Below the pieces are notes generated by a model. That model was given only the letters and a program-made list of their open reading frames with translations. It did not search any database and was not told the origin of the DNA. The position numbers were made by a program, and so were the translations under genes. DNA of 36,296 nucleotides. Source: Marine Group II euryarchaeote MED-G36. GTDB taxonomy: Archaea > Thermoplasmatota > Poseidoniia > Poseidoniales > Thalassarchaeaceae. Location: positions 1 to 36,296 of the forward strand of contig NTJR01000006.1 in assembly GCA_002457595.1 (NCBI GenBank), in the 5' to 3' direction. Of the stretch, positions 17,514-21,861 are shown piece after piece; the first letter of the stretch is position 1, and each line of letters starts with the position of its first letter.

Positions 17514-18095
17514 ATGCTCGACTTAGATTCAGGGCCTATCCATCTTTCTGTGGAAGCAGGAATAGGCGGAACTACACTTGCTTTGAGTCTGGCAGCAAAG
17601 TTATTACAAGAAAAATCTCGCATTGTTTGGTTTGGCAGAACTATTCCAAATGGAGAAAGAATGTCACAAATTTTTTCAGACTTAGATAATTCAAAACTAG
17701 AGAAATTCTATGCAATTGAATTTGGCGAGAATTTATTGATAAAAACAAAAGAGATGAAACCTCTATTGTCCCATTTAACAAAAGATGACCTTGTTGTCGT
17801 TGATGATTGGTGCCCTTCGCAGGGTAGAGTTCCCTCTTCAGATTTTGAAGCAATGAAAATGATAATTGATAGCACAAATAGTACTCGAGTTCTGTTTATT
17901 TCAAAGGCTTATGAAAATCCCTCAAATGAAGGAATGAATTGGCAGAGCAGAGGAGGGGAATTAACTAATTTAAGGCAAGTTTGGTTACTAATGAAAGATG
18001 ATTTGCAAGATACTCGTATCATAATTGATGGAACGAAAGAGATAGAACTGAAATTAGATAATAATGGGTTTTCATTAGCTAATTTTCCCAATTAA
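17514..18095 (+). CDS. Degenerate RadB/RecA-like P-loop protein
   Basis: 193 residues. The Walker A position reads E-A-G-I-G-G-T-T-L-A-L (about 14-24), so the invariant lysine before the hydroxyl residues is replaced by glycine. A Walker B-like strand V-V-V-D-D-W follows near residue 97. The order of strands, the R-I-V-W-F-G-R-T-x-P-N-G-E-R segment after Walker A, and the ending with R-I-I-I-D-G and N-G-F-S-L resemble archaeal RadB, a Rad51/RecA-fold accessory protein. RadB is normally a little longer and keeps the lysine, so ATP binding here is doubtful. It may be an inactive structural relative. The gene overlaps the convergent small membrane protein gene by 17 bases. Confidence 0.65.
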   Translation: MLDLDSGPIHLSVEAGIGGTTLALSLAAKLLQEKSRIVWFGRTIPNGERMSQIFSDLDNSKLEKFYAIEFGENLLIKTKEMKPLLSHLTKDDLVVVDDWCPSQGRVPSSDFEAMKMIIDSTNSTRVLFISKAYENPSNEGMNWQSRGGELTNLRQVWLLMKDDLQDTRIIIDGTKEIELKLDNNGFSLANFPN

Positions 18096-18330
18096 CGTTT
18101 TCATCTTCTAATAATTGACTCAATTCCGTCAACGCTTCGTCATCGAGGCGCATTAATTGTTCAGGATCTCTTGCTTCACCACTATAATGCTCAATATTAG
18201 ATAAAGATGCAATAATTCTTTTCTGACGAAGGCGAAGAATCAACCAAACCAAAATTAGTGCCGAAAACGAAAGGAGCCACTGAAAAATAGTCTCCCATTC
18301 AATAGCCATGTATCGCCATAGCGGCTCCAT
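18079..18330 (-). CDS. Small single-pass membrane protein, unknown
   Basis: 83 residues with one hydrophobic helix at about residues 15-33 (L-L-S-F-S-A-L-I-L-V-W-L-I-L), followed by R-L-R-Q-K-R, which predicts a cytoplasmic C-terminal tail. The tail is acidic and helical. The ATG overlaps the tiaS stop as TAATG, which argues that it is a real translated gene. Its last 17 bases overlap the convergent RadB-like gene. No family is recognised. Confidence 0.65.
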   Translation of the reverse strand: MEPLWRYMAIEWETIFQWLLSFSALILVWLILRLRQKRIIASLSNIEHYSGEARDPEQLMRLDDEALTELSQLLEDENVNWEN

Positions 18331-19610
18331 TATTGACTCTTAGCAGGAGTTGGGATACCTCTATGGAGTGGTTTAGCAAGATGTCTGCGATTAGAAGGAG
18401 ATGGCTCTACCCACCCATTTTGAGGGGGCTTGTAATCGGTTTTTTGTTGAATTAACCATGCCTTTTCAATAGAATTCCCACAAACCAAACATCTGAGAGG
18501 TTGCTCATTACCAGCACTCCTCATACTCTTCCCACAACAAAGAGGCCGAGAAGAAAGTCTTGGTGTTGCATTAACTAACTTCAACCTCTCTAAATGGTAA
18601 TCTCCATCTGGCGAAAGAAGCCCTACCCAATGGATAACGTCACCAGGCTTCAAACTTCTAAGTAATTGATTTACACCACCCGATTCTGCAAATGCAACAA
18701 TAGTTGAGTGTTGATTATCTTTGATAATAGGAACGCTCGCATGACCACCTTGAATTTCTAGAGGCGAATTCAAAACCACAGATTCATAGTACCCTACAAC
18801 ATGATCATCAGATACCTGATTAGTTCGATGTAATGCAAACCTATCAGATGACTCGACTGAATCATGACTTTGTAACCATTCATGAGCTTTTACTAATTCA
18901 TCAGCATCATCTCCACGGATTCCGTATAGTACTGGACAGTTTGTTCGAGGTGAAATTAGAGTACGGCCAGTTGTGGGGTCTCTATTTGCGAAAGTTGTTG
19001 GGAATTTATCAGAAAGAGATTGGATGACGGAAGCAGAAATTCCTCGCTCAGAGCCAATTAACTCCACATCCCGCCAAGATATCAATTCCCATGTAGAATT
19101 ATCATTTGATTCCCAAGAAATCGCTGCAGAAGCCCCGACAATCCCAGTTTTACCTTCAGGAAAACGAATAGTAGTATCAGTGAACTTGGACAAGTCATTG
19201 ATTCGAGAAGATGGCGCAACCATTTGACGTACTGAAGACCAATACCAATCAGGAGGGAATTCGTTAGTTGTGTAAACAAGGCAAGGGTTTGGTGAATCCC
19301 CGCTAGTAGGGCAATAAGATTTAATTTCGTTACAAAGTTCATCAAAGAAATTACAAATTATAGATTCGAAGAGTGAAAAAGAATTAGAATTTACTGAACA
19401 AATAGCACCCAATGCAGCATTACCACGTGTCCGTTCAGGAGCGAATGGCCATAAACGAACAAGTCTACGTTCAATGATTTCGAAAGAAGGAATATTTTCT
19501 AATAAAACCTGTAATAAACGATCAAAGTGTTCAGTAGTACAAGCATATTCTGTATGATCCGTGTCGTCCAATCCAATACGGACGACCTTTGTGTTATCGG
19601 TGTCGCTCAC
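18330..19610 (-). CDS. tiaS: tRNA(Ile2) 2-agmatinylcytidine synthetase
   Basis: 426 residues with a GTG start. The N-terminus has G-L-D-D-T-D (about residues 13-18), the family's catalytic-domain signature, followed by R-L-V-R-L-W-P-F-A. An OB-fold-like segment lies near residue 320. A C-terminal zinc ribbon is formed by C-C-G-K and C-L-V-C-G. TiaS attaches agmatine to C34 of the AUA-decoding tRNA in archaea, so it is essential for reading isoleucine AUA codons, which are frequent in this AT-rich DNA. Its start codon overlaps the gmhB-like stop as GTGA, and this tetranucleotide is the loop of a perfect 8-base-pair hairpin (see 19599-19618). Confidence 0.93.
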   Translation of the reverse strand: MSDTDNTKVVRIGLDDTDHTEYACTTEHFDRLLQVLLENIPSFEIIERRLVRLWPFAPERTRGNAALGAICSVNSNSFSLFESIICNFFDELCNEIKSYCPTSGDSPNPCLVYTTNEFPPDWYWSSVRQMVAPSSRINDLSKFTDTTIRFPEGKTGIVGASAAISWESNDNSTWELISWRDVELIGSERGISASVIQSLSDKFPTTFANRDPTTGRTLISPRTNCPVLYGIRGDDADELVKAHEWLQSHDSVESSDRFALHRTNQVSDDHVVGYYESVVLNSPLEIQGGHASVPIIKDNQHSTIVAFAESGGVNQLLRSLKPGDVIHWVGLLSPDGDYHLERLKLVNATPRLSSRPLCCGKSMRSAGNEQPLRCLVCGNSIEKAWLIQQKTDYKPPQNGWVEPSPSNRRHLAKPLHRGIPTPAKSQ

Positions 19611-19618
19611 GCGACACC
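19599..19618 (-). promoter_or_regulatory. mRNA hairpin enclosing the gmhB stop and the tiaS start
   Basis: On the minus-strand mRNA the sequence is GGUGUCGC, loop GUGA, GCGACACC: eight perfect base pairs capped by a GNRA-type tetraloop. The loop is exactly the overlap of the tiaS GUG start and the gmhB UGA stop. The only Shine-Dalgarno-like bases for tiaS (GGUG) lie within the 5' arm. Ribosomes finishing gmhB would melt the stem, so tiaS translation should depend on gmhB translation. The structure is read directly; the regulatory role is inferred. Confidence 0.65.
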
Positions 19619-20257
19619 CCCCAGTATTGTTTCAATAACATCCGATACTCCTAAATTGGAATCACAACGTAAACCAAGAACACCAAATTCTGAGGCAGCG
19701 CCCATATCAACACCTCTATCACCAACCATAACTGAATTGGACTCATCTGGCCTATCTGTCCAGTCTCTGTCATACAAAATGCTAAAGTTTTCAAATTGTA
19801 GATTCCGTTCAGCTGCCTCTATCAATTGGCGCCCGGCTTCTAACATGCCAGGATTTGGCTTGCGAGACCAAGCACCTTCCCAGGGCGCATAAGGAGAATA
19901 AAGAACCAGATCTAATATTGCATCTGAATCTTGTTCGAGAAGTAATTTTCTAATTTCTTTGTGAATTTCGTGTAAATTATTTGCATCCCAAAGACCTCTC
20001 CCCACAGGTGATTGATTAGTAACTACTACAATTCGAAATCCATCTCTTCTTAATCTCCCAATAGACTTGGCAGCATCGGATAGTAAAACTACTTCATCAG
20101 GAGAATTAACATAATTCTCAGAACCCAAATTAATGACTCCATCGCGATCTAGATAAGCTATTTTACCCAACCAATTAATTCCATTAGGTAGTGGTTGCAA
20201 TAGTAATTTGTCATTAAGCGCCGCACCATCACGGTGTGGCTCTAACATGGCAATCAC
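19607..20257 (-). CDS. GmhB-like HAD phosphatase (heptose-bisphosphate or histidinol-phosphate type)
   Basis: 216 residues from a GTG at 20257 that overlaps the preceding stop as GTGA; ATG 20248 is an alternative. HAD motifs: A-Y-L-D-R-D-G-V-I-N (nucleophile Asp37, acid Asp39), V-V-T-N-Q-S-P-V-G-R-G, R-K-P-N-P-G-M-L, and V-M-V-G-D-R-G-V-D-M. These match GmhB, which removes the 7-phosphate of heptose 1,7-bisphosphate. Two points are odd. There is a roughly 30-residue N-terminal extension. The zinc-binding cysteine/histidine loop usually found before R-K-P is absent (Y-S-P-Y-A-P-W-E-G-A-W-S). Together with the SIS protein upstream, a role in making an activated sugar for surface glycans is plausible. 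Confidence 0.85.
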   Translation of the reverse strand: MIAMLEPHRDGAALNDKLLLQPLPNGINWLGKIAYLDRDGVINLGSENYVNSPDEVVLLSDAAKSIGRLRRDGFRIVVVTNQSPVGRGLWDANNLHEIHKEIRKLLLEQDSDAILDLVLYSPYAPWEGAWSRKPNPGMLEAGRQLIEAAERNLQFENFSILYDRDWTDRPDESNSVMVGDRGVDMGAASEFGVLGLRCDSNLGVSDVIETILGGVA

Positions 20258-20823
20258 AATCCACGCTTGGCCTTCGATGCTTCCTTAACAATATGATTGA
20301 TAATCAACTGTAAATCTTCGATTCTTTCCATGGATTGAGTAGGAACTACGACTGCCACATCGACTAGACCTACTAATTGGCCACCAGCACCATCATTGTA
20401 ATTTCCAGTAACTGCTGCTGTTCGGCAACCAGCGGAAATAGCTGTCTTGATGCCGTTCAAAACATTGGATGAATTACCGGAACCTGAGTAGGCAATAACA
20501 AGATCTCCTTCTTTAGCAAAAGTCGAAAGTTGGCCTGCAAATACATTGGCATAATCAGTATCGTTTGCCCAGGCTGTAAAGGAAGAAATATTGTCAGTAT
20601 GAGCAATTGTGCGGATTTTGAGTTCTTTACTCCAATCACCAGCACTGTGAGAGGGGGTAGCGGCACTACCTCCATTACCAATCATGTGAATGCTTCCACC
20701 CCGTGTACCAACGTCCTCAACTTCAGACCACAGTGCCTCGATATCGCTGCGAGAAACTTGACTTAGGGTGCGCTGTAGATCATCTATATACGAATCTGTA
20801 AACGACTCAAAGTCGAAACCCAT
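20254..20823 (-). CDS. GmhA-like SIS-domain sugar-phosphate isomerase
   Basis: 189 residues from the ATG at 20823, preceded at six bases by GAGGTG (20830-20835). An upstream ATG at 20856 has no ribosome site. The SIS fold is shown by I-G-N-G-G-S-A-A-T-P-S-H-S-A-G-D-W and by Y-S-G-S-G-N-S-S-N-V, the sugar-phosphate loop. The C-terminal L-I-I-N-H-I-V-K-E matches the catalytic histidine helix of GmhA, which turns sedoheptulose 7-phosphate into D-glycero-heptose 7-phosphate. The next gene is GmhB-like and overlaps, supporting a heptose pathway. No kinase (HldE/HddA) is in the window, and another sugar substrate cannot be excluded. Confidence 0.85.
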   Translation of the reverse strand: MGFDFESFTDSYIDDLQRTLSQVSRSDIEALWSEVEDVGTRGGSIHMIGNGGSAATPSHSAGDWSKELKIRTIAHTDNISSFTAWANDTDYANVFAGQLSTFAKEGDLVIAYSGSGNSSNVLNGIKTAISAGCRTAAVTGNYNDGAGGQLVGLVDVAVVVPTQSMERIEDLQLIINHIVKEASKAKRGL

Positions 20824-20871
20824 CACCTGCACCTCAGGACGAACCGGAGACGGCATCCTATTTACGAGTTA

Positions 20872-21861
20872 ATGGCCCGAGTCGTAATAATGCAGGAGCC
20901 CATTAGTGCCGCTATTGCCACTATTGCAGAGTTACTTGACATTAGTAGCGAGTCAGTAAGATTAGTTTTAGGGATATTAGGAATGGTACTTCTCGCCATC
21001 TCTTTTAGAGATGCAGAAAAGCCAAGAGGTGCTAATATTGCAGCACCAGGATGGATTCTACTTGGCCTCTTTGTATACCTTCAGTCATCTTATTACATCA
21101 AAATTGAAGACCCCGTGTTAATTTTAATGACTGCAGCGGCACTTCCTGGAGGCATAGTTCTTGCAATAATAGAAATTCAAAAGAAGTCTACTGATGAATC
21201 ATTAATTTGGTTTAGAGGAATGGTTGCTTGGTCAATAATCCCTTACCATATTGTCTATTTAATCCCGTATCTCAATATTGGCCTTGTTCTATTCACAGCA
21301 CATAGTGCCGAATGGATGCTAGAATTTGCTGGATTGGGGTCTTATTCAATAGGAGAGATGATGGTTAGCCTTGAAGGAGGAGGGGAGGTATCTCTTTCAG
21401 ACTGGGAGGGAAATTTGTTCTTACTGACTCAGCCATTGGGGGAGAGTGGATTCTTTGTTCCTATGTATCATTCTAATGGTGAAGAAGCCAACATTAGTTT
21501 CATTCTAAGTTGCTCAGGACTTCAATCAATGATAATTTTTGTTGGAGCAATTTGTGCTCTTCGCTCTGTACCATGGAATAGAAGATTAAGAGGATTAATG
21601 ATTGCAATACCAACTATACATGTATTGAATACATTCAGAAATGCAGGGATTGTTTGGCTAACAGATACATACTCGAATTGGGCGATTGGAGGCATTGGTA
21701 TGTTTGATTTTGCACATAGTTATGCGGCAAAAGTGGCGAGTTTGTTTGCAATGTTTTTGATGGCTATTGCTTTGTTTGATTTACTACCTGAAATGCATAA
21801 TCACATTATGCGATTACTACCCCTAAAGCAAAGAAAAGATGAATCTGATTCTGTGAATTGA
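20872..21861 (+). CDS. Archaeosortase/exosortase family transpeptidase
   Basis: 329 residues with about seven to eight hydrophobic helices. The family triad is visible: Cys214 in L-S-C-S-G-L-Q-S-M, Arg256 in H-V-L-N-T-F-R-N-A-G, and His282 in F-D-F-A-H-S-Y. This pattern is closest to archaeosortase A, which cuts C-terminal sorting signals (such as PGF-CTERM) and links surface proteins to membrane lipid. No protein with such a signal is encoded nearby. An alternative ATG is at 20890. It is divergent from the gmhA-like gene across only 48 bases, and its stop directly abuts the stop of lhr. Confidence 0.9.
   Translation: MARVVIMQEPISAAIATIAELLDISSESVRLVLGILGMVLLAISFRDAEKPRGANIAAPGWILLGLFVYLQSSYYIKIEDPVLILMTAAALPGGIVLAIIEIQKKSTDESLIWFRGMVAWSIIPYHIVYLIPYLNIGLVLFTAHSAEWMLEFAGLGSYSIGEMMVSLEGGGEVSLSDWEGNLFLLTQPLGESGFFVPMYHSNGEEANISFILSCSGLQSMIIFVGAICALRSVPWNRRLRGLMIAIPTIHVLNTFRNAGIVWLTDTYSNWAIGGIGMFDFAHSYAAKVASLFAMFLMAIALFDLLPEMHNHIMRLLPLKQRKDESDSVN

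Follow-up and report, generated by a model that had tools for sequence, protein, structure and literature searches.

The start codon of tiaS in the window, a stretch of 36,296 nt from a Candidatus Thalassarchaeaceae (Marine Group II) genome (assembly 888 kb, 57% complete), is displayed in the loop of a short hairpin, H1 (19599-19618, minus strand), which is a real RNA element selected beyond coding. Together with a second hairpin inside tiaS, H2, we take it, with a probability of about two in three, to be a selected mRNA element that acts in cis and gates the translation of tiaS by structure-gated coupling to the gmhB-like gene upstream. H1 reads GGUGUCGC-GUGA-GCGACACC in the RNA (GGTGTCGC-GTGA-GCGACACC as DNA, minus strand 19618-19599) and has 8 bp; its arms (19599-19606 and 19611-19618) are 8 nt each, 100% complementary and 4 nt apart, just as the initial annotation had described a perfect minus-strand hairpin of eight pairs with a GUGA tetraloop. 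The loop (19607-19610, minus strand) is made up of the tiaS start GUG (19610-19608) and the gmhB stop UGA (19609-19607), and the ends of the two reading frames, 19610 and 19607, confirm that it coincides exactly with the stop/start overlap. The two genes lie on the same strand and share the 4-nt GTGA at 19607-19610, an overlap of the termination-reinitiation type, and the gmhB frame spans the 5' arm of H1 and terminates within the loop, so that a ribosome on the upstream gene enters the structure.

The tiaS gene (18330-19610, minus strand, GTG start) was assigned to the tRNA(Ile2) 2-agmatinylcytidine synthetases from profile matches in family scans (TiaS_FLD 2e-25, TiaS_TCKD 2e-10, Zn_ribbon_TiaS 1e-6); the match to NF040849 has an E value of 6e-46, yet reaches 157 bits against an equivalog cut-off of 600. 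The codons of its N-terminal tail, MSDTDNTKVV, carry the 3' arm of H1. The protein of the upstream partner (19607-20257, minus strand, where ATG at 20248 may replace GTG at 20257 as the start) clears the HAD-IIIA cut-off (69 vs 44.6 bits) and, narrowly, that of the histidinol-ppas domain (85.0 vs 84.15), lies under all GmhB-specific cut-offs, and is on these family scans predicted to be a HAD-IIIA phosphatase resembling GmhB. The overlapping chain to which both genes belong (18079-20856, minus strand) opens with a gmhA-like SIS-domain gene (20254-20856, minus strand), which shares a 4-nt GTGA with gmhB, where no hairpin was found, and closes with an 83-aa ORF (18079-18330, minus strand), which overlaps the end of tiaS by 1 nt in TAATG. 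This ORF gave no family match in the family and domain scans and overlaps a convergent gene (17514-18095) by 17 nt. Divergent from gmhA lies an archaeosortase A-like gene (20872-21861, plus strand; TIGR04125, 93 bits vs a cut-off of 75), and as the two start codons are 15 nt apart, the transcripts must be leaderless unless one of the genes contains the promoter of its neighbour.

A Shine-Dalgarno-like GGGGGGUG (19615-19622, read 19622-19615 on the minus strand) precedes the tiaS start and can pair with the 16S tail of the genus, GGAUCACCUCCU (loci L135 and L136), one of these pairs being a G.U. The Shine-Dalgarno-like bases had been placed in the stem, which is correct for the last four, GGUG, in the 5' arm of H1, but not for the four G immediately outside it. 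The start codon, the spacer and a part of this motif are thus enclosed by H1. The spacing from GGUG to GUG is 4 nt, equal to that at other 4-nt overlaps in the genus, e.g. GGAGGTGATGA-GTGA.

As background we used 436 kb, made up of the window and sampled same-genus stretches with simple ORF calling, which hold 24 four-nt NTGA overlaps, two of them gmhB-tiaS junctions. At these two, 8 and 9 contiguous pairs flank the overlap, versus 0-2 at the other 22, and H1 as a general trait of the 4-nt overlaps of the genus is thereby ruled out. A GUGA overlap as such is ordinary (9 GTGA, 9 ATGA and 4 TTGA among the 22), so that of the GNRA cap proposed in the initial annotation the GUGA loop remains, but its GNRA identity follows mostly from the joining of GUG and UGA. 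No known Rfam element (riboswitch, leader or thermometer) matched by covariance model at E<=1 in 19300-19900, and a covariance model of the junction element searched against the same-genus genomes gave nothing under E 0.08 outside the tiaS locus.

The codons of the two proteins, GGVA at the end of GmhB and VSDT at the start of TiaS, might simply happen to be complementary, and shared ancestry would then have spread the result. When both proteins were held fixed, synonymous codons drawn and the local folds compared, about 0-0.8% of draws folded as well as the native sequence (P<=0.008) in 14 of 15 genomes, the exception being G004 (locus L013; P=0.19). An 8-pair stem with wobbles allowed is less rare under this recoding, arising with a chance of 2-17% per genome, so coding favours the stem to some extent, and phylogeny is needed for a decision, the more so as close relatives are not independent. 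The phylogenetic evidence given below, the coupled replacement of Val by Thr or Ala in GmhB with Asp by Gly in TiaS, and the lack of such a stem at any other sampled overlap all speak against a by-product of coding and shared ancestry, which we regard as very improbable.

Among 18 genomes of the same genus, tiaS and gmhB were found in 15, and H1 is present once in each of these; the three genomes without H1 are also without gmhB and tiaS. All eight pairs and the GUGA loop are kept in 14 of the 15, while the most divergent genome, G005 (L014), has a UUGA loop, six pairs and no H2; it and G004 are the weaker cases. The arms occur as GGTGTCGC/GCGACACC, GGTACCGC/GCGGTACC and GGTGCCGC/GCGGCACC. With the outer two positions of G005 (G/A) handled as gaps, every one of the 118 aligned cells is a standard pair, versus 24-50% when one arm is slid by 1-3 columns, and the covariation score (0.326 vs 0.219) was matched by none of 500 shuffles. 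On a tree built from gmhB and tiaS with the junction left out, pair 21-32 goes from C-G to U-A twice, on separate branches, with the two partners changing together each time, and the branch of G002, G012 and G017 carries four joint substitutions that convert GGTACCGC/GCGGTACC into GGTGTCGC/GCGACACC. When the 16 stem sites were simulated independently along this tree, the observed pairing was reached in 0.05% of runs (P=0.0005). Recoding and tree nulls thus both reject coding alone as the source of the stem, as the initial annotation had argued while granting that the codons constrain it, and the compensatory changes that it had proposed to look for in an alignment of the junction are found. 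Changes without compensation, which it had named as contrary evidence, are absent within the genus save for the two outer pairs of G005. The stems of G000 type and G002 type are identical and their neighbouring bases nearly so, and a short recombination tract could therefore explain one switch; the other stem changes stand despite this.

The same alignment bears on whether the inverted repeat acts as DNA, for example as the site of a dimeric regulator, which an inverted repeat with a 4-bp spacer does resemble. H1 has nine non-Watson-Crick cells, every one of them G.U when read on the mRNA strand and none A.C, a bias that a DNA site leaves unexplained and that indicates an RNA on the gene strand. 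The position inside an operon and at a codon overlap is likewise unexpected for a palindrome acting as DNA, and we reject this reading as practically negligible.

A second hairpin, H2, overlooked in the initial annotation, occupies tiaS codons 9-16 (19563-19586, read 19586-19563 on the minus strand) as GUCGUCCG(8-nt loop)UGGACGAC, 12 nt downstream of H1. Its helix is predicted by RNAalifold on 15 same-genus sequences, it is longer by further pairs in G002 and others, and one of its pairs covaries (A-U, G-C, G.U). The protein segment at this place is VVRIGLDDT, a motif conserved in TiaS; with the protein held fixed, no more than 0.2% of synonymous recodings fold as well (P<=0.002) in 11 of 15 genomes. 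When gmhB and tiaS of nine genomes were scanned in codon-aligned windows, following the own frame of each gene and therefore not centring on H1, the H2 window came out strongest (mean z -3.8 vs -1.5 for the next non-overlapping one). The spacing between H1 and H2 is nearly constant, and most of these genomes therefore carry two selected hairpins in tandem. A switch between the two, in which the 3' arm of H2 would pair with the 5' arm of H1, was considered and set aside, as it is possible in the window but lost in relatives with GGTACCGC.

A different role for the pair would be to set the stability or processing of the gmhA-gmhB-tiaS mRNA, as a barrier or a cut site, without touching initiation. 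An RNase could plausibly be stopped by a stable hairpin between two genes of an operon, and H2, being in the coding region, need not affect initiation. We find such a role rather improbable, as the element lies inside translated sequence and would be unfolded by ribosomes, the middle of H1 coincides to the base with the start/stop overlap, and there is neither bulge-helix-bulge splice geometry nor the U-run that should follow a terminator.

Folding of the mRNA, another check that the initial annotation had proposed, predicts the tiaS start codon to be unpaired in the loop (probability ~1) and the Shine-Dalgarno region to be mostly paired (unpaired probability 0.02-0.53). To clear -18 to +16 would, by prediction, take 15-26 kcal/mol at the H1 junctions (median 23.2), whereas the other 22 overlaps have a median of 12.4 and none exceeds 18.6 kcal/mol. 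From such costs we infer that tiaS would hardly be initiated de novo, a free 30S subunit being presumably unable to melt the site. A ribosome translating gmhB, on the other hand, would melt the stem while decoding the last Gly-Val-Ala codons and would halt with its A site on UGA, which is one nucleotide away from GUG. Either this post-termination ribosome, or one that loads on the newly opened GGGGGGUG, would then initiate tiaS, and the output of TiaS would be proportional to the translation of GmhB and otherwise small. The initial annotation spoke of ribosomes that read through gmhB; the event should be described as termination on gmhB followed by reinitiation or unfolding. That coupling takes place is our most likely reading; that it is strict, as the initial annotation predicted, or that it limits TiaS, is conjecture. 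Against the coupling reading are the four G of the Shine-Dalgarno-like motif outside the stem and the start codon that is shown unpaired. H2 starts 25 nt into tiaS, approximately where a ribosome that has stopped on the overlap would have its leading edge, and our guess is that it might hold the post-termination ribosome at GUG or serve as a second lock. In work of Chemla et al., as cited in PMC12548453, structure just 3' of the upstream stop correlates with weaker coupling, on which basis H2 would be a damper and not a helper.

The high opening cost and the GUG start could also mean that the stem does no more than weaken the ribosome-binding site and so keep tiaS expression low, essentially irrespective of gmhB translation, and a modification enzyme may indeed be needed in few copies. 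We give this little credence, because known archaeal overlaps of the same type are coupled (PMC6728339), and independence from gmhB would be surprising given that the ribosome that finishes gmhB has to unfold the stem and comes to a halt over the start codon. The stem variants found in the 15 genomes could serve directly as test constructs.

Across the family, gmhB lies directly upstream of tiaS in nearly all junctions read. In the genus g3 (L084, L086-L091), tiaS has lost its gmhB neighbour and a different frame seems to reach its start. Relatives with the same gene order and no stem had been named as contrary evidence; there are none within the genus of the window (g1), but the order is kept without an H1-like stem in g4-g7, g9 and most of g10 and g11. 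H1 is therefore a genus-level feature that is not required for coupling in general, and its conservation across the family is ruled out, the mean z around the gmhB stop being -0.15 to -0.93 in the other genera with several loci, versus -2.87 in g1. Most other genera also have unremarkable opening costs. Matches of the covariance model there include tiaS loci, and we suspect that shared coding sequence drives these scores. In several genomes of g7, g9 and g10 the tiaS frame contains a single in-frame TAG or TGA (G066, G078, G099, G100, G105 and G114; loci L040, L036, L094, L099, L103 and L044).

Nine gmhB-tiaS junctions of g8 (L101, L104, L106, L107, L108, L110, L141, L142 and L143) have a covarying 7-bp stem with a 3-nt loop directly after an ATGA overlap, two pairs of which changed on both sides (GTCGAGG/CCTCGAC, GTCGGGG/CCCCGAC and GTCGAGC/GCTCGAC), and their median predicted opening cost is 19 kcal/mol. 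This hairpin (GTCGAGG-NNN-CCTCGAC) resembles H1 in gene pair, start region and covarying stem; it differs in its unrelated sequence and in its position, the stem beginning 6 nt past the A of ATG and leaving the start codon outside. In the g10 genome L065, a stem TCGGC-TTGATT-GCCGA surrounds the TTG start of tiaS and is accompanied by a hairpin like H2; this arrangement may have diverged from the H1/H2 element or converged on it. Repeated, unrelated hairpins at the tiaS start (H1 and H2 in g1, those of g8 and of L065) would, if true, point to convergent selection for structured control, which we treat as a lead, the background sets covering g1 alone.

The hairpins of the other genera also enter into the question whether H1 and H2 form a site for a trans-acting factor that controls the translation of tiaS at an incidental overlap and could be TiaS itself as an autorepressor, a different RNA-binding protein or a small RNA. 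Two selected tandem hairpins at near-constant spacing, a start codon displayed in a GNRA-type loop, the RNA-binding nature of TiaS and the different hairpins at the tiaS start elsewhere are all in line with it. The stem, however, drifts in sequence while pairing is kept, codons account for the conservation of the loop, no known Rfam family is resembled, and the non-homologous hairpins of other genera favour structure over a specific protein site, so we consider such a site unlikely. A wider view, doubtful but open to consideration, is that H1 and H2 constitute a dedicated tiaS cis-regulatory RNA that senses ribosome traffic or a trans-factor (e.g. TiaS) and tunes AUA-decoding capacity. Mimicry of a tRNA by the element was also considered; no tRNA-Ile2 was found in the sampled stretches.

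The anatomy of gmhB-tiaS fits that expected of structure-gated translational coupling, a known phenomenon. Hairpins over a downstream ribosome-binding site silence genes until they are translated through, including in phage f1 VII-IX with its 4-nt overlap (PMC12548453), and local structures have been proposed to block de novo initiation at E. coli overlaps (PMC6728339). In Haloferax volcanii, where tiaS is essential according to a report cited in PMC5178350, downstream genes are strictly dependent at short overlaps (PMC6728339); these pairs couple with no reported local hairpin, the argument being that Shine-Dalgarno motifs there do not recruit 30S de novo (PMC6728339, PMC10666635). Hairpin-gated coupling has so far been argued mostly from a few bacterial and phage cases, to which an archaeal case with compensatory evolution would now be added; if the coupling reading is true, RNA structure can harden the coupling at an overlap, and an AUA-decoding enzyme is tied to translation of a sugar-metabolism gene. 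As in phage f1 VII-IX, MS2 coat-lysis and E. coli atpHA (PMC12548453, PMC6728339), H1 would be a structure covering the ribosome-binding site that is melted by upstream translation, and with f1 VII-IX the junction also shares the 4-nt overlap. Unlike these three, H1 is short and local, with a tetraloop that is exactly the stop/start overlap, a second selected hairpin follows within the gene downstream, and it is covariation in archaea, rather than experiment, that supports the case. The termination-reinitiation overlaps of H. volcanii and E. coli (PMC6728339, PMC10666635) likewise have NTGA, an intragenic Shine-Dalgarno-like motif and normal spacing, while g1, in contrast to those of H. volcanii, adds a conserved hairpin. 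What sets this case apart is that the overlap forms the loop, that a second hairpin follows in tandem and that archaeal covariation provides the evidence.
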